Assembly (NCBI GenBank): GCA_026770025.1
Contig: JAMXDE010000006.1
Span: 1,178,001-1,242,000 of the forward strand
Direction of reading: 5' to 3'
Origin: Craspedostauros australis
Lineage: Eukaryota; Bacillariophyta; Bacillariophyceae; Mastogloiales; Achnanthaceae
DNA: 64,000 nucleotides
The position numbers were made by a program, and so were the translations under genes. Shown here one piece after another: positions 1,967-23,878 of the stretch. Position 1 is the stretch's first letter; each line of letters starts with the position of its first letter. The notes beneath the pieces are model-generated. The model searched no databases. It saw only the letters and a program-made list of their open reading frames with translations, and had not been told where the DNA came from.

Positions 1967-1970
1967 TTAT

Positions 1971-2133
1971 GACCCCGGTCAGTGAAAATAGTACACCTTT
2001 CTCGGGAAGTCCTCTCAGATTTCCCTATAAATTTAATATGATGTTCCTCTCTATGAGAAAGTGACGGATTGACTTTCCTAGAATTGTTACACTTTATATT
2101 TTATAAGTTATGAGGGCTTGAGTTGAGAAATTC
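1971..2133 (+). repeat. Left terminal inverted repeat of the outer transposon
   Basis: It pairs with 23590-23734 read in reverse complement. The outermost 36 or so bases are nearly identical (two adjacent differences). Further in, blocks such as TAGAATTGTT followed by an AT-rich stretch and AAGTTAT/GAGGG still match. The first ten bases, GACCCCGGTC, are themselves almost palindromic. The preceding TTAT at 1967-1970 is the target duplication. Confidence 0.82.
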
Positions 2134-4140
2134 CCCGCAGTAGCCCGTGCTTTAGGTTTTTAGCTTTCGATCGGACATGGATGCGACTCGTCATTGTCTT
2201 CAAGTTGGACGTCGGCGAGCGGCGAAAATGTTCTTTTTTCCTCTCTCAGACGGACTCACAGCAAGGCACTCGAAGCCGCCCTCAAACGTGCCTACAGTCG
2301 TGTGAATGGGCCCACATTTCGACTGTTTTTGGCCCCAATTGATTGAACGCAGTTTCTCGCAGTGGACTTGGAACAGGCGTGGAGGAGCAAAACTGCATCA
2401 GAATGCGATGGAACGTACGCGCACTGCGCTGTACCATACGACATTAGGGTGGGATGAAAGTGCAGAGCTATCAGCATATTCCACCAGGTATATTGGGATG
2501 CTACTTTTGCCTTTGCTGATGCTGGTAGTACTTCGTGAGCGCGGGAACTGTGATCACTGCCGGGTTCGTTGCACCATGATCTCGCGCGTTCCACGTGTGG
2601 TCTCTCATTTCATACAAGGGGCACGAGACTCTGTGACAAGATAGGTGCAGGAGGATAACGTTCCCATCCTGCGAATCAAAGTCGACCGGTGGCAACTACG
2701 GCACATTCCTGATGTACGCTGCTGTGCTCTTCTCGAGTTGCTGAGTTGCCGAGTCGCCGCGCGTTGCGCCTCTCAGACAGGATTTCGGTGTCTCGTTGTT
2801 GTTGTGGAAGTTTGTGAGTTCATTTTGCTCTTTTCTTGATCACGTTTCATTCCTTTTCCTGGTTCTTTTCCATGTCGCACCCAGAGAATCGCTCTGTACT
2901 TTTTCAGATATCGGTGGACAGACAGACGTGAGATGTGGTTTTTTGTTAGAAACATGCGTGGAACACGACCAAATCAGATACTGCGCTCGCGAATTCTGGA
3001 CTGCTTTGTGCCTGTCGATACACATTCCTCAGAGAATCGTTTCTGGTGCGCCACAAAACTGCGGAGTGGCTCTGCGAGAACAGAATGATGTACCGCACTG
3101 AACACAAGAAGGGGAGTACAGCAGTATCGCATATAATACATCTGTTTTATCGTACATGCCCACATTTGTATTATTTGCACATCGGAGGCTGATCAGGTTA
3201 GATCTTGTGATGGATCGGTTGACTCCGCAGAATCAACATTCCACCGTCAATTCCAACCGTCAACGATGGTGTTGCATCCACAAGGCGCGCTTGGTGGTCA
3301 GCGGTGCAGGCAGACTTGGAGCGCGAGGATTGTCAGCATTGTTACCCTCATGAGATAGGTATGACGATCAGTTCCATGGTGCGTTATCGTCTCCAGAGTT
3401 GTTGTGGATCAAAGACGAAGAACAACGATGTGCTGACCATCTGGACGCCATATTGTGGATTGAGTTTAGGGTAATTGTATTGATTTGACTGCAGCGATGC
3501 ATAGAATAACAATTCTTCTTGGCGCTGTGAAAACACAGCTCCAATTTTGCTCCTGGCGACGACATCGATACTGACATGCGCGTGCGATTTTTTTTGCGCC
3601 CATGGATTTGGTAACATCACTCGCTCTCGCTGATCGTCGTCATTCTCCGTTGTCTGCTGGGGCCGTTCGTGGCAGTCTGGGTGGTCACAGAGCAAGCAAC
3701 AGCCGGCGCCAACCATGAATGGCACCGGCGGTTGATGATTGGTGAACGCTGTTCCACAGGCGGATGCGATTTGTTGTCTCCCCCAGCGGTTGTTGGATGA
3801 GCGATAGACGAGAAGCTGGTGGTGATCAGCTGTACGGAAAGCGTCGGGGCAGATGGATGGGATGTTCTGAGCAATGAAACAATAGTGCCATACTAATGGA
3901 TGAGGTAGTGTGGATGAGGCAGAGAGCTTGTTCCGATTTCCTCGCAAGCACAAACATTTTCGAATTGATGGCGTATGCTCGTCCTCTCGCCGCGATTGAC
4001 TGTTGTTCGCGTGAGAGCAAAATGTGAGCCACTGCTCTGCGCCGAGAACTGGTGTCCATTTGCAAGAGAACTGCGCATCCCGATTCACAAGCCGAGCGAC
4101 AAATCGCGCACACTCCAGAATACATTCGTGACTTTTCGAT

Positions 4141-4200
4141 ACGACACGACACGACACGACACGACACGACACGACACGACACGACACGACACGACACGAC
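4141..4200. repeat. ACGAC pentanucleotide tandem repeat (12 units)
   Basis: Twelve uninterrupted copies of ACGAC. Because five is not a multiple of three, and the unit gives no stop in the frames seen, it opens spurious frames on both strands (SCRVV-type on minus, DTTRH-type on plus). Confidence 0.95.
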
Positions 4201-5187
4201 ATGCCATGCTACTGATACCAGTACCATACGTATTGGATAGATTGACGAATGGATGGGTGGAGCGAGCTGTGATCATCCCAAGGATACCGTATCGACACAC
4301 TTGGCGACGAACCATAGTCGCCGTATTGGTACCATCGCAGGACATGGTGCAGATACGCGGAGCAAACGCCGGTACGTGCAGCCACAAATTGCTACACGCA
4401 ACTGTGAAAGCAGCCTGGCGCAAGCCACTGATTAGCTCATGGGCAGAAGGCAGCAGTTTTGCTCTTGGAGTCAGTCCAGTTGTACCAGACAATGTTACCA
4501 GCATCATGGAGATTACATTGTACTTGGAGCAGAGCATTTGGGATCGATCATTCAAGAATCTTACTCCCTTTGGCATACTGCTTGCTGTCAGCAGCGATGG
4601 TGTCCACGTAGCGTTCTGTGGCAATGCTGCAGGTGCCCACCTTGTGCCTACTCTAGCAATTCACTGATTAGATTCTTATCATTGAAAGATAGGTATGGTC
4701 ATACACTAGACAGCGTACGACAGCACCACCATACCCACTCTGGCTTGAACAGGAGTGTGAGAGCTGCAACCTGGAGTTGTGCCGTGTCAACTCCTTGTTT
4801 GCCTTGGGTCCTCCGTATCCAATTTCTGGTTCCCCGATTTTCTCCCAAATCAATCTACTGAATTTTTCAATAGTGGTATACGATGTTGTTGCGTGGGTAG
4901 CGCATTTGCAAACATTACTGCACTCATCCTTTGCACGATCCTCTCCGTTGGATGAACTCCATACCTTGATTTCAACGCTGCGGACATACCCACCCACCAA
5001 TATGATGCATGCGATTCACCCTGTGCTATTTTTAGTTCGGCGCGTTGTGTTGCCGGATTCTCGTTCTCTCTGGTGTTATTTCTCACGATAAAGTTGCAAT
5101 ATCTTCCCCTTTCCGCTGCGTTCACGGACTCCATCGGTTTCGACAGCCACATGCCCGGACTGCCGTCGTCTTCTTCGCCTTGTCGTC

Positions 5188-5461
5188 TACTTTGTAGTCG
5201 TCCAATTTTATTTCGCAATTCCGCCTGGTGCTATTTCTATGCCAACAAAAGCATACCTATGTAGGGACCCCGTGTTATTCTTCGCACTAACATTTTTGCA
5301 CCCTCACCTGAACGTTTCCATCACGCATTCTATCAGTTTCGACGTCTGGAGGGACGAATCACTCTCGTCCCCTCCGCCTCATTGTTTACTTTGTAGTCGT
5401 CCAATTGTTATTTCGCAATTCCGTCTGGTGCTATTTCTATCCCACGAAATCCATACCCATG
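5188..5461. repeat. Pair of 75-bp direct repeats about 200 bp apart
   Basis: Copy A (5188-5261) and copy B (5387-5461) share TACTTTGTAGTCGTCCAATT, then TTTCGCAATTCCG, then TCTGGTGCTATTTCTAT or a near match, and a tail ending CCCATG or CCTATG, with scattered substitutions and one single-base indel. A more degenerate third piece (CTCTCTGGTGTTATTTCTCA) lies near 5070. This looks like a decayed tandem array with a period near 200 bp. Confidence 0.75.
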
Positions 5462-6365
5462 CAAATTCCGCTCCGTCGACATGCACCTTCTGGAGGGCAT
5501 CGTCAGTGTCATGCACGATTGCCGCGATTGAGATGAGTCTATGCCATTCCAGTTGCATCAACCATTCATATTCCTCAATACTGTATGGTGTCCGGCTGAT
5601 GGGAAAGGGGAGGTTGTGCCTGAGCGATCTACACGCTCCGAATTGATGTTGCTCGCAATCCTCTTGCGAGGGCTCCGGGCTCCGGCAGACTGTGTGTTGA
5701 CTTTCAATTACTCGCGGATCCGTGTGGTGTTGGCCTTTTCGAATTCCACCAATGGAAGGAGATGAACATGGCATTGATACAGATGGTTACGCCGGTTTGC
5801 CGATGAAGCGGATACTGGAGATGGTGCGGGGCATGATTTCCTACCGCTTGGCATCACGAGGCCAACGACTCAACCAACAGAATTGACGATCAGCGACGGC
5901 AGTGGACAAATTGCAGCGGCTCCTGAAATATGTGAAACCACGGACACGTTCCTGCACCATTGTGAGCGCTGCGCTTTTGCGGTTCCATCATGGTTCGAAG
6001 ATCGACTTGGCGTCTTCTACTTGTCTCATACTCGACAATACACTGCATGCCATGGTCGATGCCTGATCCGGTTTTGTGGTCTTGATCGAAAATGTGGGTG
6101 TGGTGTGGGAGTTGTTGTTGTGAATTTGGCGCACCTCGGTCAAATCTGATTGGATGGGAATCATCAATGGTTCAGTGTAAATGTCGTTTGTTGCTCACGA
6201 GGACGAACGACATTTAACAAATGAACAACGAAGAACCAAAGTATATCCGAAAATCAAGAAAACAACACGACGGGATCACAAATGACAGATTCATGGACCA
6301 GCCACCCAATCCTGACGCACCAATCAAAAGCAACAGGCAGAACAGAATGTCCGCCCCAATGAACT

Positions 6366-6413
6366 CACATCACACATCACACACCACACACCACACACCA
6401 CACACCACACACC
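6366..6413. repeat. ACACACC-type microsatellite
   Basis: Short imperfect tandem repeats of CACAC/ATCACAC and ACACACC units in the leader region upstream of the transposase. Confidence 0.85.
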
Positions 6414-7072
6414 CAACGACTGTACTCTTGCCCATTCACTGCGGATACTTCAATCGTCGCATCTGAGACGATCGGCGCCGACAGCCAACACAACTCCAAA
6501 TGGCAGCCAACGAAGAAAAGATCGATTGTATTCTACCGTTTTGCGTTCGGCCACCAGGGACGTAATCATGATACACACTCGATCGTCTCTCACGATGCCA
6601 AGGCAAATGATGAGAAATTGAGGCTACAATCGATGAGAATAAAAGTATTATGAAATTCAATAGAGAATGAATGGACAGACGGATTGATGTAGCACTCGTT
6701 GCTCTCTCTCTCTCTTGCACTTGCACTTGCTCTCTCGTTGTGTTGGCGCCGCGCCGCGTCACACTCACTCTTTCGCCAGAATAAAAATCGCAGATGGTTC
6801 CACATACATTCTCCAATCACAACCACGTATGCACAAATGGGCGACCGTTGAGCTGTTGCCGCCGATCTCCGCACAAACACAGCGCTCATGCTGTTGTGAA
6901 CAAATAGGCGTGTGCTGTTTTGGCTTGTTGAGCGTTGTTGTCGCTGTCTGCTGCGTTCTCCTGTCTGCAATGTCAGCGCAACGCTCAGTGCTCTCCAACA
7001 TCGAGATCATTCAGAATCACCAGTGCCTTCCCCCCACCTGCATCGTTCGTCAACCACCATCGCTATCGCATC

Positions 7073-9633
7073 ATGACCCGTCCACGCGAGGATTCGAGCA
7101 TCGATCCCAATCCATCCCAATCAAAGGTTCAACGTCGAACAGCAACTGCTGGCACATCCATCTATCCCCAACCACCTCATGGGCACTACGCATCATACCA
7201 ATACTCTGCACCTGTCGGACCGAACCACCATGGCAGCGTTCACAGTCCTCCTCTCCCCATGGTTGCGAATCATCATGCCCCTCCCAACATACAACCTCCT
7301 TCCTTTTGCATCCCCAGCTACATCGGTACAGGCGCAGGTAGTCTACCCTACTCTACATTCCATTCCAACACCAGCATGGCAACTCCCATTTCCAACTACA
7401 TGGGGCCCAACCGTTTTGGTATCATGCCTTGCAAGCAATGTCTGACCCTGTTCTGCAGTCACTGCAGTAGGCCACCATTTTGCCCAAACTGTGCGTCATC
7501 CATCAGCGGAGGTGCACGTCATGCAGGTGTGAATGCCTTTGTACCACAGGCCAATTCGTTCTCCATTGGGACTTGTGGTGATGCTGCTGCGCCCACACGT
7601 CCCAAGCGCAAATCATCAGCAACCAGATGCAGGGCGCCACATCAGCAGGCAGGAGATGATGTGCTTGCGCAACGAGATGTCGCTGTGTCCACGAACGAAC
7701 GAGAGTCAGATTCTGCAAGTACGAGCAGTGCCGATGACACCGATGTCGAGTATGTTCCAGAAACAGAGGATGCTGTAAACAGAAAAGGACTACTTATATC
7801 TATCTTCAGATCAGCAGGCATTGGCATTCGAGCAATTTCGAAATTCCCTGTGAGTGGATTTGGAGGCATCCCACCAAGGGGAGCCAAGCGCCACTGGAGT
7901 CTCATCAAACGAATCTGGAAAGAGCTGTGTAGCGGAACATCCGAACATGCAGTCTTCCCTGGCGCGAAACCATCACCTCAACTTTGGGAAGCCATGACCT
8001 TCGTGCGACATCGCAAACAACTCCCTCCTGTGTTGCTGGAGCAGACTCTCTGTCATTTAGCCTTCTGGGGGAATCGAGACCTGTCACTGACTGCTCGTGC
8101 GGTTTTGGCAATGACCTGCAACTCTGGACGCTGCACCCGAATCCTGGCCATGCACTACGGTGGCTTGTCGAAAGGGGACAAGGCGAAGGTCATGCCAGGA
8201 TGCCGAACCATGTCTCGTACAGCACACAGGCGACTGTCGCGCGCTGGAGGTGCGATCCTTGCTGGAGGCCAGTTCCCACACGCAGACTACAAGTACCGTG
8301 TCAAGGAATCTAGTCTCCAGGGCGTAGTCTCGTTTCTCACCTCCATGTTCCAGTACCGGCCAGGCATCACAAGGAGCGTCAAGTTGGCTGGTGTTCTGTT
8401 CCCAGACCTGCCTATCTTCATTCGCGGATCAATACCAGAAGAGCAGCTCTTTGCCAAGTACAAGAACACAACAGATGACCCAGTTGGTATGCCTGCCTTC
8501 AAGAGTATCCTGACATTGCTCACGCGACGTGGCAAGTGTCAAACCGGCCTGTCCTCCTTCTACACAGACACTCTGACTGTATTCATGCACTTTCAAAGCA
8601 TGATCAAGAGAGTCATGGAACTGCTTCGGACTCAGAACAAGGAACATCAAGACAAAGAGCTTGCGTCTGAACTTCTGGATGAGGCACAGGCCATCATCAC
8701 GGACAGTGATTCTGTTCTTTCATTTGCGAAATGGGAATATGCGAACAAGCACCTCAAGGTAAAGCCAACCACGGATAATCTACATTCCGCAGAGTTCGCA
8801 CTGACAAATGGCTCCCTCCCGTTTGTGAACCAAGCATGCAAGCAATGTGCAGATGTCATGACGTTCTTCCCAATTCGCGTTCGCAACTTCATGAAAACTG
8901 CCACCAACAGCATCACCGGCAACACGTTTGAATTGGATCGCATGGCTGCAGCAATTAACCTGTGTGATGACGCGCTGCGCCAGTACATGGCCCACCAAGT
9001 GAGACGAAAGGTGCAAGCGCAGAAGATCACGGAGGAAAAGGAGCGCCTCAAGGATCATCCAGATCGCATCATTGCCGTGCTCGATCACAAGCAACGCATC
9101 CTCCCAACGGAGAATCAGGAAGCTCAGAAAGCGTTTTTCGGAAAAAACGGAATGTCTCTCCTTGGTGTCATGACGATCCAATACAAGAACGGTAAGTTCG
9201 AGTACCGATTCATTGACATGGTGATGAAGGGGCGGAACAAGCAGGATCATGTCCAAGTTGCTGGCGCCATCAAGATTCTACATTCTACCATGCTTCCAAA
9301 GCTTCACAAGGGGGTCAAAGAGGTCGTATTCCAAAGTGATAATGCCAGTTGTTTTGCGAGTCCGGCACTGATGAGGTACATGCATGGACTAAACCAGGGA
9401 CAGGTTGAAGTTGAATACACGATGCCGGAGAAGAAGAAGAAGAAGCGGAAGACAACAGCCAAGAACAAGGGCAAGCACAAGGACAAGGCTAAGTATCCAC
9501 CTCCCCCCAAAATCAACACAGAACAGTCATCTTATCATGACGCGAAGACTGCATCATCCGCGAAGGCAAATGCACAGCAAGACGCCGGAACCTGCCCTCC
9601 CAAACCACGACTCCAAATCATCCAATGGCTGTA
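7073..9633 (+). CDS. Large DDD transposase of the outer element, 5' part (interrupted)
   Basis: About 854 codons up to the insertion of the inner transposon; the frame then meets TAG at 9635-9637 inside the inserted end. It starts at the first in-frame ATG, 7073. There is a Pro/His-rich N terminus, a Cys cluster (about residues 118-142: CKQC, CSHC, CPNC) like a zinc-binding module, an acidic linker, and then a long conserved region. Two catalytic-type aspartates are visible: VLDHKQRI (Asp about 671) and FQSDNASCF (Asp about 756). A Lys-rich insert follows. The third Asp lies beyond the insertion at 18648. The arrangement D...SDN...GKSALDG recalls Sola-like or related DDD transposases; I am confident it is a transposase, less so of the superfamily. 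As it stands this copy cannot make the full protein. Confidence 0.8.
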
Positions 9634-9683
9634 CTAGCTGCACTCAATGTAAAACGGTGTCGCGATAGCACTAGTTGTGGAGT
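9634..9683 (+). repeat. Left terminal inverted repeat of the inner mariner-like element
   Basis: It begins CTAGCTGCACTCAATG and continues through GGTGTCGCGATAGCAC to GGAGT. It matches the reversed right end at 48 of 50 bases; the mismatches are at tip positions 2 and 4. The target duplication TA precedes it at 9632-9633. Confidence 0.9.
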
Positions 9684-10259
9684 TTTGGCCCCTTGTTGCC
9701 ACTGGTTTGCTCGCTTTTGGGAGAATCGGCGATTGGATATTTAGAGCTATTTCGTGTTTGCTCTCGCTGATCCGTCTTCTACGTCACAGGGAACGGATTC
9801 CACGTCATGAAAAACGAGTCACAACAGAGGAAGAGACATCGTGTGACTCTTCCTCCACAAGACAACGTGATGACCGTGTGCAGCAACAACAGAATGTGCC
9901 ATGCCAGGACAGCCAACAACACTCCACGTTGACCAATCTCACAATGGAAACCAGCAACATCCAATCGTCTCGGAATACGACGAAGCGCATTGACGAGCTG
10001 TCCGACGCAGACGAAACAGTAGCAGCACAAGCCGCAACCGCTGATGTCTACAATGATGCAGACGATTCCAAATGCGAAGACACATCCTTCCTCACCATCG
10101 ATCCAAAGGTCATCATTATCGTCAACGATGACGAGCTGGATACCGATGCAGCGAACAGCTGCGAACTGCCAGAGGGGATGGATGCCAACAGCATCCAAGA
10201 ATCGACCATCGCCGACACGTTCTGTGGTTCCGCGAACTACACCGCCAACCATCGCAACA
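9684..10259 (+). other. Segment upstream of the PCMT pseudogene, possibly its N-terminal extension
   Basis: A plus-strand frame is open through here and encodes an acidic, Gln/Asp-rich stretch. Whether it was the N-terminal extension of the captured methyltransferase gene or chance cannot be told. Its apparent beginning lies in the transposon end, so the frame is not a genuine gene start. Confidence 0.35.
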
Positions 10260-12370
10260 CCCTGGCTGCATTCCACATTCCAGGCGATTTTGGGCAACGA
10301 CGTCATCAAGTCCATGGATGTGGCAGATGAATGCCAAAATGTTGATCGGGCGCACTTCGTCGCGCAAAGCCAACTTCGAGTGGCGCACAGCGATCAGCCT
10401 ATTCAAGAGGGTTACGTCCACTCCTCAGCCCCACACATGTACAACTTCATCATGGAGCTGTTCGACTTTCATCCCAACACTCTGCTCAAGGTACTCGATG
10501 CAGGTTCCAGAACAGGATATCTGATGTGTCTCATGGTGTCCCTCTTTGGGCCTTGCTCGGCACAATATGGTAAGTGATGGTTGTGATTCGTCGCTCTGCT
10601 CTGACATGCTTTGAAATGATGTGAGCAGGTGGATCTTTCGCTCATGCACGCCTGAATGTATGGGCTCATGCCTGAATTCGTTCTCTCTTCTTTCTCTTCC
10701 TGTCTGAGCAACATGTTGAGATGGTGCAGTTCTTGAGCCGCACACCTGCTAATCACACCGGACACTAGTTGTCATATGATCGGCACCAAGTTCCCTTGCT
10801 GCACAACTATGTTCCTATCGCTTCTCGCATCTAACTGTTTCTCGCCACGTCTCCTCCTCAATTCATAACACGTCCCCTACCTGGTGCTCCATTCCGCCAC
10901 CAAATCAAATGCCATGCATTGAGCTTCAACAAGAGGTGGTTCAGCGTTGCCACGAGTCATTGCAAAGATGGACGCCAAATAATCTTGGAGCGCAGAAGAT
11001 TGATGACATTCATGTCATCCAGGCAACGCCCTGGAAATAGCCGCAGACAAAGGAGAGGCCCCATTTGTGTTTGACCGGATCTACACCGGGCTGGTATCAA
11101 TATCGCGTGCATATTGAAAATACAGAATCTCCTCAAACCAGACGGTATCTTCATCGCACCAGGTAGGTGCCATGCGGCGACGCTCATGACAAACGGTCTG
11201 TTGATAATCGCCCACAACCTTCACCGCCATCCGTTCACCTGTTCAAGCCAGCACAGCCCTTTGACGGTCCATTGCTGTTAATATGCAATGGGCCTGTTGC
11301 TCGTCGCCCACTGTGCAATTATTGGAGATCTTTTTGCTCTGTTGCTTGTGCGAAGCGAACAGTGGACTGCTGTGCGCTGCGCCGCAATGCCAACGCCAAT
11401 TCACCACGATGCGATAGAATCTGACGCCTTGGTACCCACCCCTTGCTCTTCATCGTTGCATTGCAAATGAACAACAAACGAACACATACTTTCGCATCAT
11501 CCGAATCGATGCAACAATTTGAGTGGATGATGAATTCATCATGGTGTCGCGGAGGGACAGCCGTGCGGATCCATCTTCGGTGATCTCGCCAAAGACTCAA
11601 GATTTCGCAAACACTCTTGAATCCTCAGTCCGTTTCAGCGGAATGGTGGAAGATGCCGATGGCACAAATGAAGTTGTCATCTTCAGTCGAATATGGAGCC
11701 GTCCTTGCCCGCCACTACCCTGATAGCTTCCGAGAGTCGTTCAAATATCTCATGATGTGTGCCAATGCCAACGTCGTGCAGCCAATCGTGCCACAACCAG
11801 CACATCATGCCAACATTGCGGCTGCCCTCCCCAAGGTCTCATGGATGGAAATCGCGTCCCACACACCCAAAGATTGTAAGTTGAGATCCAGAGAGATTCC
11901 AATTCTGTTTCAGATGCCACTGCCTTGCCATCGCTGAGATTGCCTTTATTGCGTGAAGTGGGGCGATTCGAGATGTCGACTGAACTCCCATTCTATTTTC
12001 AAGATCTTGGCACTCTTCCATTCACTTCTTCAGTTGTGCCGCATGTACCCTCGCTTTCCTTTCTCACAAATCTCCCATGACTCAACTGCACAACTGCACA
12101 ACTCCCCTGTCATGGGTTCCAAACACCTCATACCGAGGTTGAGATCCTCAAGCGGAGACTGAAGGAAACACAGCAGGAGGACCATGAGGCCAATGAGGCC
12201 CGTCCAGCAGCCAAAGTGAGGTATTGTATGGTCGCGCAAGATCGGGATGTTCATCGACTGCTCGCTCGCGCTTCCAGTTCGCTTCAAGCTGAATCAGATC
12301 CAATCTCTCGCGACGAGGTCGCCAGCAAGGAACCATGTCGGATATTCTGGACTACTGAGAGGTCGATTCA
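10260..12370 (+). pseudogene. Decayed protein-L-isoaspartate O-methyltransferase (PCMT) gene
   Basis: PCMT repairs isoaspartyl residues using S-adenosylmethionine. Recognisable pieces occur in order: NDVIKSMDVADECQNVDR and the SAPHMYNFIMELFDF block, the SAM-binding motif LDAGSRTGYL (normally Gly where Arg stands), a GTAAGT donor near 10569, then LQRWTPNNLGAQKIDD, DRIYTGL and LKPDGIFIAP, which need two frame changes near 11030-11100, a GTAGGT donor near 11161, and a downstream part with WMEIASHTPKD and EVEILKRRLKE, which I associate with the C-terminal region of stramenopile PCMT proteins. Retained splice donors show DNA-level copying, not retrotransposition. Frameshifts and an in-frame stop mean it is not functional. 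It sits wholly inside the mariner-like element, so it looks like captured host DNA. Confidence 0.75.
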
Positions 12371-13310: not shown

Positions 13311-13616
13311 AACTTGTCCTGTCCGAGGCCAGCTCATCGAGGAAGCGTTATGTGCGAACTAAAACGAAGACTCGGTGATGCCATGCTTGGCTACCTGGAA
13401 CGTCTGTGTCTGCAGGAGGGGGCGTCCTGCATCTTCGTTCTCAGCGCGCAGACGACGGAATGGTTCATCGAATGTGGACTTGACGAGGTCGATGTCAGCT
13501 GGCTGTCACCCAGCCATCACACCGCGTACGATACCAAGCGCAACAACATGATTTGCCTGAAGAAGATCACCAACGTTCATCATCTGGATGCCTCCGAAAT
13601 GTGGTGGAATAGATAG
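13311..13616 (+). pseudogene. C-terminal GNAT fragment of N-acetylglutamate synthase
   Basis: About 90 residues read LGDAMLGYLERLCLQ, then IFVLSAQTTEWFIECGLDEV, an LSPSHHTAYD segment, and a C-terminal LDASEMWWN before a stop at 13614-13616. This matches the end of the acetyltransferase domain of N-acetylglutamate synthase (first step of arginine synthesis): GDxLLxYLER, FVLTTRTxxWFxERGF, LPxxRxxxY and LDAEELFW. The amino-acid-kinase domain and most of the GNAT core are absent, and no ATG begins the piece, so it is a fragment. It lies inside the mariner-like element next to the PCMT pseudogene and is probably a second captured gene piece. Confidence 0.72.
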
Positions 13617-14340
13617 CTTACACAAGAAAGGCACAGTGGATACAATGGGCACAATGCACAGTCGTATGTATCGTATTATAGGAGCTGCACTGGCACATCA
13701 CAACATAGCATAGTATAGCATACGAGCATTGTATGGTGTGTATTCGTTGCGCTCTACTCTACTCTGCTCTGCTCTACCAATACATGACGATTGTGCCAGT
13801 GGCCATGCCGCTGACAGGGCACGAGCAGAGATGAATGATCATAGGATGCATCGTTGGTGCTCCAGTGACGAGTACAGACACGTGGACTTGATCGCAGCAA
13901 AGATCGCGAGGGTTGCACATGTGTGATGAAAAGGAAGTGGAGTACTGGCATGGTACAATGTGGTAAAGATGTACGAGTGCGGTACCAACCAAGAGGAGCC
14001 TTTGCCATTCGATTGGTTTGTGCGACACACACCGATTGTGCTGGCACTCCGATCGACGCAGTTGAGGCCTTGGAGCGTTTGTTGTGTGTGGTTCGGCTGG
14101 AATTTTTCCGATCAGAGCGGCACGACACAACGCGATGGCTTCACAATGCGCGCACCATTCACGACACAAAAATAACGGTCTGCGTCACAAAATCACATCA
14201 CTCATCACAAAACACAAAACAAACATCACACACCACACATCACATCACAATCCTCCATGCCATCAAACAGATGATGCGCACACAGGCACTCCAATCACAG
14301 GTGTGCCTATAACATATAATACTACTACTTCAATTTGCAG
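13617..14340. other. Inner-element spacer downstream of its transposase gene
   Basis: No coding sequence recognised. It contains short AT-rich repeats (near 13670-13730, TATCGTATTATA and CATAGTATAGCATA types) and a CACACATCACA-type tract near 14200-14250. Confidence 0.45.
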
Positions 14341-16893
14341 CTACACCTCTGCTGTGTTGGTATCCTCCTCTGCTTTGCTGTGATGCTCGTCCTTGCCAGC
14401 GAACATGGCCACGTCGAATGTGTTCATGGTGGGTGCTGCTTTGGCTTTGCTATTGCTGTTGCGAGGCTCAATGATCTCGGCTTTGCTCTTGCTGGGCGTC
14501 TTCTTCTTCTTGCCTTTCTTCTGGTGTTCAGCCTCCTCATTGGCTTTGGTGGTCGCGACGATTTGCTTCTCCAGCAACGGAATGAGGCTGCTGGTTGTTG
14601 GCAGGTTCGTTTTCAGGCACTGCAGACCACTGACAGCCATCACCTTGAGGGCATCATCGTACATACCTTTGATGTCGGGCTTGGCGTATTTGAAGCCAGC
14701 TGATTTTTCTTTCTTGCCTGTTGCAGTTGGTTTCTTGGTGGTCGTGTTGGTTGCCTCATCCTCCTCCTCCTCCTCCAACACGAAGTCCATGTGAGACACA
14801 GTCACACCGATCTCGTTGCCGTCCTTGTCAGTTTCGGTGAACAATTGTTTCCGCACATTCATGCTGAGGCCCTTGCGCTCCGTCACAAATTCGTCACCTC
14901 CTTCCGCAGCACAAATTGCGTAGGCAATCTGATGGTGGTGAACATACACACGCGCCATCTTGTCCAGCCCAAATTGCTCCCAACAGGTTCCACAAGCACC
15001 CCACAACGCATCAGTGGTGAACATGCGACTCCCGTGGTGCTTACCTTGATGTGCTGACACGTGTTTCGACATCGCTGGGAATATCGCATCGTCTTCCACA
15101 TTCGTGATGGGAGAATTTGATGGTTGAAATCGTAGATGCCATCCGCGACTGTCGAACTCCTCGTTGATGAGCCTGAGTAGTTCCGTGGCTCTGTGTGGCC
15201 CCGCGCCATCCATCTGGTACCGAATCACCACGTTTTTTCCCGTTTTGGTCCTGATCTTGTTGGCGAGCGAATCCAGTGCAGGAATTTCTTTTTCGCGGAA
15301 GAATTTCTTGAGGCTGTATTTCGGCTTGGGCTTATCAAGACGACCATCTGTTTCCTTGCTGCCTGTGATCTCCAGTGCTTGGAAGTACAGTTCACCCTTC
15401 ACACAAGAGATTTTGTTGGGATCAGGAAGGTGCTTGTACTTGGTTGGCGAGACCCAAGTTCGCTGGTACGTATTCTTCTGCGCTGGGACCATGCGCCCAA
15501 CACGTTCAAAGCTGACACGATACGCCTTTCCTCCTCGATCAAAGCGGTTGTCTGTTGGAGCGAACGCTGTTGATGCAATCGCCATGGTCTTTTCAATGTG
15601 GCACTTGTGGTGCACAGCATGGTCAACAGGCTTAACTCCCATCTGGGGCACATGTTTGAGATGCTTGCAAGCGACAATAGAGTAGAACCACTTCTCGTCC
15701 ATGTGGACAACAACAACTTGCGTATTCTTGAACTGCTCAGCTGATTCCCAGAACACACAGAAGTCCTTGGCCCACCTGTCGCGCTTCACCTTGATGTCGC
15801 CCTTGATCTTGGGGAGCATCGTTGTAGAACGGTAGTCGCTGCCCTCCAATCCCATCACGTATGTTCGAATGGTGTTCGCGCAAATGCATTGGACATTGCC
15901 CCTTCCTGCTAGTTCGCGTGCAATATTGTCCCACGAGATTGCGCCATTGCATCGTTGCAACACATCCTGGAGCTCAAATTGCAGGAACGGACCACGCTCC
16001 AACCACGAATCAGACAGGGATTTTGCGGATGCCAGCTCTTCAGGAGAAGCAGAGGCATAGGCATAAGAGATGTCTTCGGGCGGCAACCGTTGTTGTGGAT
16101 GTTTGAGCTGCAGTTGTTTCGCGAAGATGGCACGCGGCGTGAAGTATTGCTTTTGCTTCTTGGGGTAGGTGAAGATGGTGCTGCCTGCATCACTGCGCTT
16201 CTTCCGTTCCAGCTTGTTCTGTTGGAATTTCTTGATGTTGCGATCGACAGTAGAAGTGCCAATATCCCAAGCATGGGCGATCAATTTTGCATTGGCTGGG
16301 ATCCCACCCAAATTGAAGTAGAGAACGATGTAGTTGTGCTTGTCTTGCGTATCAAGTTGTTTCTTTCTATTGGTGGGCTTAGTGTTGCTACGCCCTCCAT
16401 CCTTTCGCAACCATCCTTTCGTTGTTGCGCCTCTCTTCATCTGCTTGCTGAGACGGGCGATTGCCGTTTCTTTCTGCTGACGTGAGACCTCGAGAAAAGC
16501 GGCGATGCTGGCTTCTTGCGATTCCGTGGTAGTTGGGGATGGTGTGGGGGGCTTAGCCTTGTTTTTGACACGCGTAACAGCGACGGAGTGATGCTGGGGA
16601 GAAAGGAGGGAAGGCTTAGCAAGGCCACCAGCAGTGCGAGTCCGCGCGAAGGTAGCGAGGCTGTGTGGCGCGCACAGATCCTCACGAACAACGTACATTC
16701 GGCTCTGCCCCATCACTGGGGTCACCATGACCATTGCCACCTCTCCTGGTGCAAGAGGCCCATCGCGTTTGATCGTAGCGCCTTCAGCAGTCAGTTTCAT
16801 TGCAAACTCAACATGACATAAGCCCAGATCGAGGACCCTGCCACTTGAGCTCTGGTGGGATGCCACCTTCACACAGTCACCAGCGAGCATCAT
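14341..16893 (-). CDS. Mariner/Tc1-like (IS630 superfamily) DDD transposase, 850 residues, uninterrupted
   Basis: It would cut and paste the surrounding element. A helix-turn-helix-like segment lies at about residues 195-224 (IPANAKLIAHAWDIGTSTVD). The catalytic triad is visible: HMDEKWFYS (Asp 399), YQMDGAGPH (Asp 562), and QPSNSPITNVEDD (Asp 601 or 602), giving DD38-39D. MDEKWF and QPxNSP are typical of the plant and protist mariner lineage. It is much longer than the usual 350-500 residues: about 190 extra N-terminal residues, and a Lys/Glu-rich C-terminal tail ending KAEEDTNTAEV. There are no stops or frameshifts, in contrast to the decayed cargo, which suggests recent activity. The start is the first ATG of the frame at 16891-16893. 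Confidence 0.9.
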   Translation of the reverse strand: MMLAGDCVKVASHQSSSGRVLDLGLCHVEFAMKLTAEGATIKRDGPLAPGEVAMVMVTPVMGQSRMYVVREDLCAPHSLATFARTRTAGGLAKPSLLSPQHHSVAVTRVKNKAKPPTPSPTTTESQEASIAAFLEVSRQQKETAIARLSKQMKRGATTKGWLRKDGGRSNTKPTNRKKQLDTQDKHNYIVLYFNLGGIPANAKLIAHAWDIGTSTVDRNIKKFQQNKLERKKRSDAGSTIFTYPKKQKQYFTPRAIFAKQLQLKHPQQRLPPEDISYAYASASPEELASAKSLSDSWLERGPFLQFELQDVLQRCNGAISWDNIARELAGRGNVQCICANTIRTYVMGLEGSDYRSTTMLPKIKGDIKVKRDRWAKDFCVFWESAEQFKNTQVVVVHMDEKWFYSIVACKHLKHVPQMGVKPVDHAVHHKCHIEKTMAIASTAFAPTDNRFDRGGKAYRVSFERVGRMVPAQKNTYQRTWVSPTKYKHLPDPNKISCVKGELYFQALEITGSKETDGRLDKPKPKYSLKKFFREKEIPALDSLANKIRTKTGKNVVIRYQMDGAGPHRATELLRLINEEFDSRGWHLRFQPSNSPITNVEDDAIFPAMSKHVSAHQGKHHGSRMFTTDALWGACGTCWEQFGLDKMARVYVHHHQIAYAICAAEGGDEFVTERKGLSMNVRKQLFTETDKDGNEIGVTVSHMDFVLEEEEEDEATNTTTKKPTATGKKEKSAGFKYAKPDIKGMYDDALKVMAVSGLQCLKTNLPTTSSLIPLLEKQIVATTKANEEAEHQKKGKKKKTPSKSKAEIIEPRNSNSKAKAAPTMNTFDVAMFAGKDEHHSKAEEDTNTAEV

Positions 16894-17479
16894 GCTTGCA
16901 AGGTGAAGAGTACAGTGATTGCAGGATGATGTGTATTGTGGTGATGGAGGCTGCAGTATACTTCAAAGGGGCGTCGCGACGCACACCAGAATCACGAGGA
17001 CAGCAACACAGCGCATCGCATCATCAGCCATCGAAGCACAGCATGGCGCGGCGCATCACCGGGGCATGGGCAACATTGGATGGTCACCAGGTGCATTGTG
17101 TCGTCCGCTCTCTCCCATGTGGAGAGTCCCAGTCATTGTACATTGTTGTAAAAGCAATGGCTACAAGCAACAGAGAATCAACAGCTGGTCGTCCCAGATG
17201 CGCAATGTTTCCGTTGTCCACTTTGTGAGGACAGTTTTGTTGTTGTGGAATGGAGGTGCAATTCGGGACTCGCAAAGTGTTCTCATTGATGGGCACATTC
17301 GGTAGAATTGTGGTTAATCTCCGTGGCCCCCGACAGCAAAAACTGTTTGAGAACACCAAACACAACACAACAACATGACAATGGAGAAACACAACAAAAC
17401 TCCTCAAGCGCCGTCGAAAGGAATCGACGGCACTGCGACAACCAGCGGTCCAGTGCAAGATCCGATCGCATAGGCGGAA
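16894..17479. other. Inner-element region upstream of its transposase
   Basis: This should contain the transposase promoter, since the gene reads leftward from 16893. No recognisable coding sequence. Confidence 0.45.
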
Positions 17480-18290
17480 CCGCCATGTAAAGTTTAGTAG
17501 ATGAGCGAGAGGGGGTTGCCGGAGTGGTTGATTTGGGGCCGTGGCAGGCCCACGCGCAAGCGACACGATTCGGAGGAAAATCTGCTCTTTGGATATGGTC
17601 TCTGCCTGGAATGCACAGGCCATTCCAACGACTATTGATGGGCAAGACGCATCCAAGAGGATGCGGTGAAGATGCACACGAAGTTTGAGGGTCGGGGGTG
17701 GCCTGGAAGGTGCCCTCCGCAAGAAACAAGTTGAGGGCAAGAGTTTCTTGGTGGGTGGCGGCGGACACATCACATGACTTCGCTCGTGATGGGTGCCATT
17801 GGCAAGTCACCCAAATCGCAAAGCCACCCATACAAGATATGTTCGGAATCAACTCAAGATGACCAGGGCGGAGCCTTCTCCACGGATACGGTCTGTAAGA
17901 GGCTGCAAGGTGGGATGCACACAAAATGGGGTTTTTGGGTATCGCAAAAACTCCATGTTGGCATCAGCACATGGAGATGTACCTTTGGAGGTATGAGCGC
18001 CCCACCCATTCTGGACACATCAGTGTGTCGCCAGAGAATGTGGGAACGCATGAGGGGCATGTGGAGGAGCTGCAAGGATCGTATCGACGAGATACGGATC
18101 CAAATATGGACGGCATCCGCGTCGAAATCGGGTGTTCAAAAATTCTGCTTTTCAGTGCAGGGACAGTTCGGAGTATGAGATGCGGCTATCCGTGGAGAAG
18201 CTTCATGGAGTGGATAGATGGGGGGTATATGGAGCTAATGTGGTGCGCAGATTGTGAAAATGCCAGGGATGATAATGATGATCATGGGTG
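17480..18290 (+). other. Unidentified, possibly captured or repeated segment in the inner element
   Basis: Plus-strand translations look protein-like but are broken over several frames: GFGGKSALWIWSLPGMHRPF near 17550, KMGFLGIAKTPCWHQHMEMY near 17925, and KILLFSAGTVRSMRCGYPW near 18140. Codon-like composition without a continuous frame would fit another decayed captured fragment or a dispersed repeat. I do not recognise the family. Confidence 0.3.
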
Positions 18291-18564
18291 CTGAAGGTAG
18301 GGCAGCATGGTGCCATCGAGAATTTTTCGCACCCACCACCTGACAGACAGCAAGCCAAAACGACATTAAAAATAAAGTCCATACAAATTTAACTTCAATA
18401 TTCAGAATCACTGATAGCCACTCGTCCGGATGCACTGTCTATTTTTAATTTTTAAACGGTGTGTTGTCGAGATATAACATCATAAGCAGTTGTTTGGATG
18501 GTTTTGGATGTGCTCTATTTTAGTCTACTTTATCACGACTCATCACGAGTAAAACTCAAAAAAC

Positions 18565-18614
18565 ACTCCACAACTAGTGCTATCGCGACACCGTTTTACA
18601 TTGAGTGCAGGTCG
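18565..18614 (-). repeat. Right terminal inverted repeat of the inner mariner-like element
   Basis: Reverse complement of the left end over 50 bp with two tip mismatches. It is followed by the TA target duplication at 18615-18616. Confidence 0.9.
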
Positions 18615-18616
18615 TA

Positions 18617-19706
18617 CACTGAGGCACAAGCTGGCAAGAGTGCTTTGGACGGACACTTCGGTTTCGTCTCACGTCAACTCAGGTTGTATGTGGACAGTGC
18701 CAGGGACGCAAAGATTGCCACCGAAGGCGATGTTTTCAAAGTGCTGAAAGCTGCCAACATCAAGGGGACAACAACACTTCTGTTGGATCTGAGCAGATTG
18801 GGACATGCCATCATGTGTGGTGTGGACGGAAAGGAAAAAGCATTCGCGACCAACCGAGTTTCCGTTCGCGCCACCCATCAAATTGATCTGATCGATGACA
18901 AAATTCAGGTCACAGCATCATCGGGCTTGACACATCCAGAGACTATCACTCAGGGCAAGATCGACAAATTTGACATTCTCCATCTCGATGTCACTTGCAA
19001 TGATGAGGACATCACAGAGGTCCCACCGGCATTTGTGATGGATCCACAGAATATCCGTGGCTCACAACCGAGTGAGCGACGACACGCAACAACAACAAAC
19101 AAGAGCACCATCAAGACGGAAGTGTTCAAACGTGTTCTCACTTCGCGTGTTCTGGAACCAGCAGCGGCAGCAGCAGAAACGGCAAATTGTGAACGAAATG
19201 CCAAAGTGGACTTCCCTCAAGCCATCAGGCAGGGATGGGCGATCTGCCACCCAGACAAAGCCACCTCACGAAAGAAGGATCCATCAGCACCTCCGGCAAC
19301 CAAGGTACCGTCCATGTCGAAACAAGTGGCGCAGATTGTGTGCGATGCTGCGATTGCTTGCAGGAACCCAGACACGAGGAGGAGCGCCCATGTGCTTCAC
19401 GAAGAGCTGATGGCCGGGCCTTTCATGCTTGATTGGGAGCAGAGGATCAAGGTGGACATCACGTACCTGAAATGCTTCCTGGCAGCTCCTGACGGTCGAG
19501 CGGAGAGATACCTTGAGAACAATGGCTACTTGGATGACGAGGAGTGCGAAGAGTGCCTGAACGAGATGCATGAACTGCGGATCATGGCATCCAAGGAGAA
19601 CACTCAAAGCGAAGAAGCGCACGAAGAGCAGGTTCTGGATGATCGCCCATACGATGGGCAGGACGCTGATGTGATTGATGGCAACCTGCTACCTTCCGAT
19701 GATTGA
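18617..19706 (+). CDS. Large DDD transposase of the outer element, 3' part
   Basis: This continues the gene begun at 7073. Joining TA (9632-9633) to base 18617 makes a TAC codon and the sequence WLYTEAQAGKSALDGHF, with the third catalytic-type Asp (18648-18650, about residue 865 of the joined protein, 108 residues after the second). The joined protein would be 1216 residues. The remaining 350 or so residues include a basic patch, an Ala-rich segment and a Glu/Asp-rich C terminus ending LLPSDD. The frame also extends upstream to 18498 through the inserted end, but that part is transposon DNA and not genuine coding sequence. The 3' part has no stops, so the insertion may be recent. Confidence 0.8.
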
Positions 19707-20020
19707 TCCTGACGACCGCCGCGAGTATGCCAACATTACTATATTGCATTCTATTCTACGATACTATACTCTGTGTCACATTGATACTATCAACTTGCAG
19801 CATGGCGATATCAACTGCAGTAACTGCGTGTCCACAGGGATTCTGAGAGGAAGCTGTTGTTGGTATGTATAGAGTGGCTCTGATGTTATCGGTTGCTATG
19901 ATCTTGACATGCACAATGGAACCACCATCGCCGTGCATCTACTCAATTCGCACATGTGCTTGCTATGTATGGTATGATACACGATTAGAACACTGCGTGC
20001 ATCAATCCAAATCCAGTCCA

Positions 20021-22246
20021 TTACTCGTCAGCTGACTTTTTGGCATTCTTCGACAACGTCATGAACATGAAATCGTACGCCAGCGCAGTCATGAAGGCGT
20101 TCTGCGTCGGCGTTGCAGGCAGACGATTCCCGCCCTCCACATTCTCATCGTATTATGACAGCCATCGTTTTCCCTGAACCAGGCTCCACAGCTTCTTCAC
20201 CATCTTGCGTGCATGCGCTGGGTTATCCGATCATCGTTCGTGCGGCAGTGAATAGGATTGGTAGAAAATTTGGATCCTATTTGATGTTGTGGTACGGCGA
20301 CATCTACTTCATGAACACCTCCAATCGGACGCGTCCGGATCCAAATTCGTCGCGCAAATGGGTGCATCGTCCGAATGCAGATCTTTGACCGCTTGATGAC
20401 ATGGGTCGACTGCCCAACGCACCGCGCTGAACAGTTCAGGAGCATCACGAAAGCATCCGCACCACCAATCCTCCGCCGGATCCGCCGTGGATGACCAATG
20501 TTTTGGCTTTTCATTTTTTCGACCAAATCAAATCCTCAGCAACTGCGATGAAGTCTTCGGGTGGTTTGGTGCGCTTTTCGCGCACCGCGGCCTCCAGCAA
20601 GACGATATTGCAGCAATTCAGACACATGGTTGGAGTGGAGTCCATCATTCGGGATGAGAGTGTGTGCGAGCAGTACCACAGAATGGGCACAGTGAGTATC
20701 ATATCATATCATGCCATGCCAACCAATCGGGCATTGATTCAATTGTGAGTATGACATGAAGTGAAGTGAGAATACAAATGGAAAAGAATGAAGGAGTGAA
20801 TGACAGGTGTTCCCACAAGCTCCGAAAGTTGTACTCCTCCAATGCGCCTATTGTGTGCACGCTTTCCATTCCTGATTTTTTGGTCTGCTCTGCGCCGCGC
20901 ACATGGCATGCACAGCTGCGCGAGTGAACAACACAACCATACACAGCAGCAACAACATCGACAATAATTGGCACTCACCTGATGCCAGCTGGGACCAAAT
21001 TCTTCATCACCACGCACGTTGGCTTCCGCGCAGACGCCGCCACATTCCAACCATGCCAGACCTGTTGCGGGTTGTAATGCGGACCGCCACGACCTCAAAG
21101 GCACCGTAGGCGTAGAGCAAGGTGGGTCCGCTTGTTCGTGGGGACGCCTCTTCGACATCATGAAGTGCAGAGCATCGGCGCTGTCCTTGCTTTCTGCGAT
21201 GCATTGCATGACGTCCACACCTTTCGAATCGAAATGACTCGGTAGCAATTGCAGCTTGCTGCCAAGGTGGACCTCTGGATCGACATGCTTCATGATCTCC
21301 ATGTCTTCGCCATCAAACACGGACGCATCGCCGAGCCACAGCATGGTGGGCCTGTGTAGCTGGCAGTGTGGCCCAGAATCGATGGCCTTGTTGGGATCCG
21401 CAGATCGGACGCTGGCGCAGGCGATTGGGGCCCCTCTCGACTCCAGCAAACACAGCTGTTGGTCCCTTCCGATTGGTAGAATCCAGCTTCGATCTGGCAT
21501 GATCAATGTGCAGGAGGATGAGATCGTTCTTCGTGACTGTGTGGTTTTCGCGGGGGAGGTTGTTGGAAGGTTCGAAGAGGGTGTGGTATATCCGATGCTG
21601 ATCCAATTGACGAATTTGTGGCGTTGACGTAGATATGGATCTGGCCATGAATGTCTTGGCCCCCTCAGGTGACCAGTCGGATCGCAATGTAACCCTGAGA
21701 ACGTGCCAACGAAATCGGTGTCCAAATCTTCTGGCGCAAGCCAGGGTTTGAAATCCGGCGGATCTCCCGTCTCGATTCGGGTTTGATGTCTGGGCGGCAG
21801 CATGTGCTCGTGCTTGACCTTCCATATCCAGAATTCGGTGGTCTGGTGGGTGATGGCTCTCGTGCGGATTTCGTAAATGCCCCTGCCGCGCACCCTCTGA
21901 TCGTCAACGTAGGCGGAGACCGCGATGTCGGATTTTTCACCTTCGAAGACCACGAGAGCCGATACCAGATCCGTGCCTCTGACCCACTCACGGATCGTCC
22001 CGGAGCATGCCGCCCTTGTGAGAGACGAAGGACCAAAATTCGCTGCGGCCAGGAGGATGTCCCTCATTTCGCAGCAGGATCTGGTCTTGTCTTGGGGACA
22101 TTGAGAAGCTTGCAGGATCTGGTCTTGGGCTTGGTGGGACCGCTGAGCGTGTTGAGGCACATCTCGTTGGCCTTGGAGTCGAAGCTCATGGAGGATTTGT
22201 TATCCTCATCCTCCAACAAGATGGAGGGATCGTCTGCCATGTTCAT
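20021..22246 (-). pseudogene. Decayed prolyl oligopeptidase (S9A) gene
   Basis: Prolyl oligopeptidases cut short peptides after proline, with a beta-propeller followed by an alpha/beta-hydrolase. Reading down from about 21200, pieces match the catalytic domain: PTLLYAYGAFEV, LECGGVCAEANVRGDEEFGP, FIAVAEDLIW, LVIHGGSGGGLVV (nucleophile site, normally GGSNGG), SPYHNIK, and a final YDENVEGGNRLPATPTQNAF ending at TAA (20021-20023). These lie in different frames with in-frame stops. The position where family members carry the catalytic His of the G-H-G/R motif is Asn here (EGGN). An intron is retained (GTGAGT donor near 20975). The 5' half (about 21240-22246) is also frame-broken and less certain. 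It lies inside the outer transposon but outside the inner one, so it is probably captured. Confidence 0.7.
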
Positions 22247-23589
22247 TTCTCTTTGCGTTGTGGTGCGCGGTGTTGTGTTGTGTTGTGATACGCTATGATG
22301 CGTTGTGATGCGTTGGAATTGTCACGGTCGCACAAGCAGGAATGGGTGACTGCAACGGTACAACCCACCAACTGAACACGAGCGGCGATCGGTCAATTGA
22401 TCGACGCAATGAGAGATGCCAGTTGGGCGTGGGATGAAGCACTTCAGAAGATGAACGTGCTTGTGCATGATGCTCTTGATTGAAAAAAGATGATGGCGAG
22501 CGAGTATGGTACGTGCGGTTGCCAAGGCATGCCGATGGAAATGGAAATGGCAACGGCGATGATGCGAAGCCACGCGACGCGATGTTTCCCACCAGTCAAC
22601 AACGGCCCCTTTCACCTCTTGTGTTGACTTGTTTCTTGTCTTTGTTTGTCCAAGTCTGTCTCTTTGGATGGCTCATGCGTTGAGATTCTCAACGAAGCCT
22701 TCAAGCCAACGTGCCAGGTTTTACTCAGCAGATATGACGTCTGTCCGGATACCAGGGTCACAATCGACAATATTGATTACTTTTCATTGGCGCCAAAGAG
22801 TTCAAAGGACGTTCTGGAGGATACCTCCGACGAAACAAACTGTAAAAATCGTGAAATCGAATCAAAAACGCTGGAACGGCGGCCGTTGAAATGAATCGAA
22901 ACAGTGCAGGAAACAATAAAGTGGGAGAAAAGCAAGAGTTCGCGACAAGGGCAACACCAGAGCGACGGCGGAGGTAACTGTGTGCGGATGACGTTGTTCA
23001 GACAGAGTCATGAGGTTGCTCAGGGTTAGAGTTAGGGCTGGGGTTCTGGCTTGGGTTAGGGATCGAGGGAAGCAGTTGCTCAGGGCTAGAGTTAGGGTTA
23101 GGGTCAGAGATGTGTGGGTTGGGGTTGCCGCTGCGTACAGGACTGTGGCGAGGGTGCAGTCCATTTCCATCTTGGGACCAGCAATTCACATCGTCCAATT
23201 CAGCGCTGCGCAACTTGCATCGTATGCGTCTCGTGCATTGCAGCCCGTGCATCCCCCTTGCTACCACTCTGACATAACAGACAGGAGGAAGAGGAACAAG
23301 GACCGTGCCTACCATCCTGGTTGACAGCCCATGGCACATCGCCCCGCATCACATTACATCACATCACTCTCCACGCAACAACAGTTTCGTGTTCACACCA
23401 ACGATTCTGTGTGAGCACAAGGTAGAGTCACTCTCCGGAAATTCAAGAATCGCGAACAAAGCCCAAACGACGGAAGAAAAAAGAACGTTTTGGGACGAAT
23501 GACCACTGCGACTAAATTGAAGCGTCAATGAGCACCGCGGCGTCTGTGTGTTATTCACCTAATAGGTAGATTCGACATGACTTTCAACC
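22247..23589. other. Right arm of the outer transposon
   Basis: No gene recognised. A short plus-strand frame at 22646-22894 has protein-like composition but no identifiable domain and an uncertain start. The arm also holds the telomere-like stretch at 23019-23105. Confidence 0.4.
23019..23105 (+). repeat. Degenerate interstitial telomere-like (TTAGGG) stretch
   Basis: The sequence alternates TTAGGG with variants: GGGTTAGAGTTAGGGCT, GGGTTAGGGATC and, after a short insert, GAGTTAGGGTTAGGGTC. Several hexamers are perfect and others carry one or two changes. TTAGGG is the telomere repeat in diatoms, so this may be an old telomeric insertion or a chance G-rich array. Confidence 0.6.
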
Positions 23590-23734
23590 CTCTATAACTT
23601 TAAAATGATTGGACGGAACAATTCTAGTTCTTGCCACATGATGTATCCGATGTAGGAGAATAGATCTGTGCAGTTAGTTTTAGCATAGAAACGACGTTCC
23701 CGAGAAAGGTGTATCATTTTCACTGACCGGGGTC
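23590..23734 (-). repeat. Right terminal inverted repeat of the outer transposon
   Basis: Inverted partner of 1971-2133. The last 36 or so bases match apart from two neighbouring positions. TTAT follows at 23735-23738 and matches 1967-1970. Confidence 0.82.
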
Positions 23735-23878
23735 TTATTGTAGTCTAATTTATCTTCCATCTCATTCCAATTGATCCTCCTTGTTATTTCCACACGTTCA
23801 TTGCATGTTGGGAATGGAACTTGTCACGAGCACCGCAATGCTACACTCGTATGTACAATATGGTACGCGCATGCAGGC

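Follow-up and report, generated by a model that had tools for sequence, protein, structure and literature searches.

The brown alga Ectocarpus is already known to harbour giant DNA transposons that contain nested insertions and additional genes; its Sola-1, KDZ and EnSpm elements exceed 10 kb and reach up to 30 kb (PMC12477816). Sola elements encode a DDD transposase, create 4-bp target-site duplications and are sometimes larger than 15 kb, while Tc1/mariner elements duplicate a TA and measure 1.5-6 kb in plants (PMC10741241). Pack-MULEs and other gene-capturing transposons, which are named in PMC12477816 and PMC6446971, carry cellular gene fragments, introns included, as passengers in chimeric cargo. 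In this paper we looked at a 21,764-bp element in the diatom Craspedostauros australis, which occupies positions 1971-23734 of a stretch of 64,000 nucleotides (contig JAMXDE010000006.1 of assembly GCA_026770025.1, positions 1,178,001 to 1,242,000; C4:1178001-1242000), called the window below. We consider it very probable that this element is a complete copy of a family of large cut-and-paste DNA transposons. A mariner-like element is inserted in it, and we refer to the two as the outer and the inner element.

All genome searches were made in the organism's own assembly (74.83 Mb, 90 contigs). Copies of the outer element are named after the contig on which they sit, and C2 (13,553 bp) and C22 (13,676 bp) are the only ones that were read end to end. 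Like the Ectocarpus giants, the diatom family has a stramenopile host, is of the cut-and-paste kind, exceeds 10 kb, holds nested unrelated transposons and additional genes, and includes many copies without a working transposase (PMC12477816). It differs from them in that the nested insertion is seen in the window copy only (it is absent from C2 and C22, and 16 transposase frames pass the site), in that the cargo can be traced to host loci, and in that its transposase has no demonstrated homology to those of Sola-1, KDZ or EnSpm (PMC12477816). A preliminary description of the locus, made from the sequence alone, knew of no diatom element of this size and composition. Our literature searches on diatom giant transposons, gene capture and Sola/KDZ do not contradict it: no such family was found described, with most subscription papers outside the coverage, and the available parts of two diatom papers searched for Sola contain none; the published giants are those of the brown alga (PMC12477816).

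The outer element and its copies

The outer element lies between two copies of TTAT (1967-1970 and 23735-23738), as read from the flanks. Its terminal inverted repeats, located by a repeat finder and by genome search, are 38 bp long and 95% identical (left, 1971-2008, plus strand, tip GACCCCGGTCAGTGAAAAT; right, 23697-23734, minus strand), and the repeat finder itself gives an inverted pair at 1968-2008 and 23697-23737 with 41-nt arms that are 93% complementary. The near-identical ends, first put at about 36 bp, and the TTAT duplication were thus correctly recognized in the preliminary description; the patchy similarity over about 150 bp that it added was not recovered, since the window ends match each other over 38 bp only (E<=10). 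When the ends were searched in the genome, the left 180 bp matched 34 places and the right 175 bp matched 35, partial matches counted, which excludes a chance origin of the ends. End-to-end pairing gave 28 copies, 22 with the end type of the window and six with a second subterminal type. Among the first-type copies 15 measure 12.9-14.3 kb and seven measure 20.3-30.1 kb, and searches with the element body revealed further copies without window-type ends. Other copies of the ends therefore do exist and enclose the same body, which bears out the element as first described.

Matching 4-bp flanks were found in 20 of the 22 first-type copies (TTAT in eight, TTAA in five, ATAA in four, ATAT in two and TTAC in one). 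The second-type duplications were read by eye at both ends of the six copies, and all six match (ATAA 3, TTAT 2, TTAC 1). Altogether an NTAN duplication is present in 26 of 28 paired copies, with TTAN or its complement in 24 of the 26. Even if only the two bases around the TA are required to match, by chance at 0.35 each, the binomial probability of 26 matches in 28 is 6e-22. Segmental duplication or an assembly artefact could also multiply such a sequence, and C12 and C37 have their right flank in common, as a local duplication would give. Yet the matching flanks and their binomial probability, the fact that, C12 and C37 apart, the 22 paired copies have different flanks, and two insertions that are seen against uninterrupted paralogous sequence leave this explanation with next to no probability, and we keep to a transposon family.

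These two insertions came from a comparison of the joined flanks of the 22 copies with the collected loci, in which six copies gave seven spanning rows and empty paralogous sites were accepted for two, C32 and C37. Copy C32 sits in a repeat of which an unbroken version adjoins copy C38 (89% over 373 bp, ungapped). The C37 site is a relative of the right end of the inner element (77% over 221 bp, ungapped at the joint). The rows of C59, C18 and C2_2.64M were rejected because they extend 17-27 bp beyond the joint inside the copy's own locus, and the row of C36 because it is a weak inverted self-match. It was also found that the terminal 1.4 kb of several copies is 100% identical to that of a copy at an unrelated site (for example the right ends of C22 and C18 and both ends of C59 and C6_1.83M), from which it follows that the outer family moved recently. 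The copy in the window is an older one, whose nearest relatives reach 96.3% identity at the left end and 95.1% at the right.

The outermost ~27 bp of the second-type ends resemble the first type, with one base off in three of six copies and more in the others, and the next ~175 bp inward of the left end have no match. Body and tip are thus alike in the two subfamilies (L105-L116 compared with window 1998-2173 and 23607-23734) while the subterminal segments are unmatched, as if modules had been exchanged between them. Along the body, the identity of C22 to the window copy falls from ~95% to 83-85% at C22 element coordinates 5501-6500 and 10501-12000, a pattern that suggests recombination between subfamilies. 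Two other arrangements were noted. At C5:477080-485963 (L117, L118) another outer-family copy has its transposase broken at a different site by an insert of ~8.9 kb, whose ends show neither an inverted repeat nor a match among the collected loci. At C38:467131 and C38:494597 (L034, L035) two divergent outer-type left ends face each other 27.5 kb apart; the similarity continues in inverted form beyond them, and a matching duplication is lacking.

The outer transposase and its classification

The left half of the outer element (2009-6900) contains no long open reading frame (ORF), is ~90-98% alike among copies and includes tandem repeats of CGACA (4137-4201) and CACACCA (6366-6413). It is followed by the transposase gene on the plus strand, in two parts at 7073-9633 and 18617-19706 (stop at 19704-19706). 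With the inner insert removed the two parts join across the empty site into one frame of 1,216 codons with no internal stop, so the insertion is the only evident lesion of the gene, and the large transposase of its own that had been claimed for the element is confirmed. C2 and C22 each have a single open frame of ~1,311 codons. The ratio of nonsynonymous to synonymous substitution rates (dN/dS) is 0.27, 0.30 and 0.31 in three pairwise comparisons (part 1), and the ORF is under purifying selection. A six-frame search with a 615-aa query, which itself ends before the inner-insertion site, found a transposase piece of at least 75% identity at no fewer than 37 loci, and pieces ~26-44% identical at no fewer than 28 further loci (groups of 14, 2 and 12); these counts are lower bounds, with 71 of 386 candidates scored. 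At no fewer than 16 of the 37 close loci the frame is open over 1,262 aa or more and the match is free of stops; these frames extend past the inner-insertion site.

Part 1 of the protein has a cysteine-rich stretch (7430-7492), a first acidic motif VLDHK (9077-9091) and a second, QSDNA (9332-9346), and the third motif is TEAQAGKSALDGHF at 18618-18659, all on the plus strand. In the alignment of five divergent relatives the motifs are conserved as V/I-x-DHK, QSDNA and TEAQ[TA]GK..D.HF. The first two aspartates are 83/84 residues apart (D-83/84-D), and in three compact relatives 35-36 residues follow to an E or 44-45 to a D. Besides the conserved D and D of the first two motifs, both an E and a D are conserved in the third, which may complete a putative catalytic triad. 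An AlphaFold2 (AF2) model of window part 1 alone, made from the single sequence, has a mean predicted local distance difference test (pLDDT) score of 42 and is mostly unreliable. In its best region a strand ends with the first acidic motif, two strands and a helix follow, and the second motif comes directly behind a later strand, a placement that gives a hint of an RNase H-like fold.

Which superfamily the element belongs to was considered against the known ones. piggyBac and Kolobok duplicate TTAA only, and here TTAA makes up only five of the 26 duplications. For Tc1/mariner a TA duplication is expected, and in the outer element the bases on either side of the TA are duplicated too. Polinton/Maverick elements have long polymerase and integrase genes; apart from the transposase there is no open frame longer than 339 codons in C2 or 285 in C22, and the seven transposases have no integrase or polymerase match in Pfam. 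Pfam includes a KDZ model, and no KDZ-named Pfam match was obtained for the seven transposase members at E<=10. A PIF/Harbinger element would show a 3-bp TNA (or ANT) duplication (PMC12477816), and here 4 bp match in 26 of 28 copies. EnSpm/CACTA elements are expected to have CACTA/CACTG termini and a 3-bp duplication (PMC10741241), and here the tips read GACCC... and the duplication is 4 bp. On these features the TTAA-only, 3-bp, TA and CACTA families are ruled out.

Whether the outer element is an ordinary, merely large, member of the Sola superfamily seems to us an evenly balanced question. The 4-bp duplications (26 of 28 paired copies), the variable inverted ends, the conserved D, D, E/D motifs of a putative acidic-triad transposase and the occasional size above 15 kb fit the Sola description (PMC10741241), and Ectocarpus is reported to have a Sola1 element of 21.5 kb that includes an additional gene (PMC12477816). 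On the other hand, the diatom duplications are NTAN, mostly TTAN or its complement, unlike Sola as described, and no relative was found in Pfam, in the PDB or among viruses and prokaryotes, though Sola is placed in bacteria too (PMC10741241). In these searches the transposase pieces and seven relatives gave sub-threshold noise only in Pfam, a PDB profile search returned two meaningless rows, and pattern matches in viral contigs (20) and in bacterial and archaeal genomes (25) included no transposase relative. The likeness to Sola is one of described traits, and for this reason the element is not filed there.

Another option, which we regard as possible but rather unlikely, is that this transposase stands at the root of a eukaryotic cut-and-paste superfamily of its own that has yet to be described. 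Several lineages in this one genome, down to ~30% aligned identity, have the motifs and the D-83/84-D spacing in common, the NTAN duplication fits neither the TA, the TTAA-only nor the 3-bp families, and no family library gave a match. However, few transposon superfamilies are represented in Pfam or the PDB, so that absence from them says little, and Sola itself was compared by description only.

The inner element and the captured genes

The inner element (9634-18614, plus strand) is 8,981 bp long, with TA at 9632-9633 and 18615-18616 and inverted ends of ~52-57 bp. It interrupts the outer transposase gene of the window copy, and C2 and C22 run ungapped where the window carries it, so the second transposon of the preliminary description is real. 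Its removal with one TA leaves an outer element of 12,781 bp. The size that had been stressed is that of the 21.8-kb total, much of which is the single nested insertion. TA stands on both sides in the window and in seven of eight aligned full-size relatives, the eighth having lost one tip, and the left tips of two further short copies outside the alignment also show TA. An intact ORF of 850 aa (14341-16893, minus strand) is taken as the inner transposase. Its motifs HMDEKWFY, MDGAGPHRA and NSPITNVEDDAIF are ones we take to be mariner-like, presumably the three acidic motifs expected of such proteins. The ORF has no match in Pfam, NCBIfam or the PDB. The TA duplication and the inverted ends are as in Tc1/mariner, whereas the size of ~9 kb (against 1.5-6 kb in plants; PMC10741241), the DNA of two host loci inside it and the lack of a library match are not.

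For the inner family the scoring covered 22 of 557 candidate loci. Three of these, the window included, match over the whole length, six match in two pieces that cover all but ~50-75 bp and one matches over 1-7296; seven copies of ~4.8 kb are unmatched to about query 252-4514, and five are partial. The block missing from the ~4.8-kb copies is host-derived. A near full-size copy at C2:471473-480492 lies ~430 bp from the outer-family copy C2:480918-494470.

Part of this host-derived DNA comes from a PCMT locus. Window 10280-13376 (plus strand; inner-element positions 647-3743) matches C2:2152341-2155260 at 82-84%, introns included, and contains a PCMT domain at 10296-10553; the host exons score E 5.8e-17 and the piece in the inner element E 1.2e-10. 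Next to it, window 13365-14023 (plus strand; positions 3732-4390) matches, at C24:209785-210433 and with 83% identity, the end of a gene that has an 891-aa open frame. This is the 3' end of an N-acetylglutamate synthase (NAGS) gene, of which the last ~65 residues are recognized (E 4.8e-9, far below the full-length cut-off). Genomic DNA of both loci has thus been joined within a mariner-like element and amplified. The NAGS tail has 71 matches at ~69 loci of the genome, host genes included; some belong to a high-copy group with four in-frame TAG codons (L099, L100), and others are carried by mariner-like elements whose left portion differs (L096-L098).

The cargo of the outer element is a decayed prolyl oligopeptidase (peptidase S9) gene at 20809-22107 on the minus strand, and further S9-like stretches, seen by eye only, reach ~20060. 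It is 82.4% identical in DNA to C12:326855-328168 over 1,324 columns, and the match extends beyond the point where the C12 frame leaves the oligopeptidase alignment. The cargo gene (21021-22160, minus strand) has relatives within element copies of both end types. Outside the transposon its relatives are a locus at C12:327059 (55%, 541-aa frame), where no part of the transposon is listed in the end, transposase or body searches, and a distant gene, L122, at C3:1276770 (672-aa frame). L122 is a prolyl oligopeptidase (PF00326, E 8e-17; PDB 4hvt, 1.9e-50). An alignment of 418 aa shows 52% identity between the C12 locus and L122, and the locus is identified as an oligopeptidase because L122 passes the Pfam cut-offs; we take C12 as the probable nearest known source of the outer cargo. 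In the window copy the gene is split into several frames, and in the element copies the fragment falls below the Pfam cut-offs: the strongest S9 match, that of C22, has E 0.0067, and the window piece gives none. A SPO16-like repair gene (E 0.0019, below cut-off) was rejected, as alignment with host homologues shows prolyl oligopeptidase. Of the pieces of at least three cellular genes first claimed, the oligopeptidase, the PCMT piece and the NAGS tail are supported, and their placement is refined, with PCMT and NAGS in the inner insertion.

It could be argued that selection maintains these genes for a useful accessory function, as it does in other giant transposons with cargo: the oligopeptidase gene occurs with both end types, and in C32, C37, C4_0.60M, C29 and C3 it has frames of 456-514 aa with no stop inside the match. 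We find this improbable, as the gene is broken into fragments in the window copy and stops are listed in many copies, its block is one of the two where C22 diverges most strongly from the window copy (83-85% identity), and the inner PCMT and NAGS cargo are gene fragments. Passenger cargo of this kind, chimeric and with introns, is as in Pack-MULEs. In place of non-autonomous MULEs, however, the carriers here are an unclassified giant element and a mariner-like one in which the element's own ORF is retained.

A possible history of the element

Some points weigh against a complete cut-and-paste transposon with captured host DNA. The flanks are unequal in two of the 22 first-type copies (C38_0.55M and C2_2.64M). 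The break points that had been expected from empty sites were found for the inner element and, in paralogous sequence, for two of 22 outer copies, but an empty allele of the window site is absent from the assembly, where the joined flanks found only the two occupied flanks. The C12 locus alone lies just under the Pfam cut-offs (19.4 against 22.6 bits). Finally, no sequence library recognizes the outer transposase, and for this reason its chemistry rests on the conserved acidic motifs.

With the ends, the duplication, the copies, the empty sites and the selection on the ORF observed, the following course may be proposed. A DDE/D-type (RNase H-like) transposase of ~1,200 aa would bind the ~27-38 bp tips, excise the element and join it to a staggered 4-bp NTAN site, and repair would then duplicate the site. 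Capture of the prolyl oligopeptidase gene, in the form of genomic DNA, probably preceded the separation of the two end types, and the gene may have decayed since as a passenger. The 9-kb mariner-like element with the DNA of two host loci would later have inserted into the transposase gene of the window copy and inactivated it; C2, C22 and the other long-frame copies lack the inner element. The window copy would now be non-autonomous and, with both ends kept, movable only in trans.

The long ORFs on the two sides of the element, 694-1593 (plus strand) and 23879-25930 (minus strand), face the insertion with their 3' ends. An Rfam scan of window 1-26000 found nothing and a tRNA scan was negative. 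Further on, at 27099-27527 (plus strand), lies a light-harvesting (fucoxanthin-chlorophyll protein) gene, one of 61 PF00504 matches in the genome. Its protein and another on the same contig have as closest PDB relatives the fucoxanthin-chlorophyll proteins of 6ly5 and 6l4u, which are presumably from the diatom Chaetoceros, and these proteins mark the host as a diatom. For a third light-harvesting protein (L103) the nearest PDB relatives are multi-domain LHCI proteins (9vfj), followed by a fucoxanthin-chlorophyll protein.

A wider proposal, which we hold to be unlikely as a whole, is that a new superfamily with 4-bp NTAN duplications and exchangeable subterminal modules forms with the 9-kb mariner-like elements a two-tier gene-capture system, by which host segments are copied to dozens of sites. 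What the data document in a diatom is a family of giant DNA transposons that was active recently; its ends and target-site duplications are defined, its copies are numerous, and empty sites are seen. Three cargo segments have 82-84% DNA identity to loci that are still in the genome (for PCMT including intron sequence), and these matches make gene capture by two kinds of DNA transposon datable and its mechanism testable.

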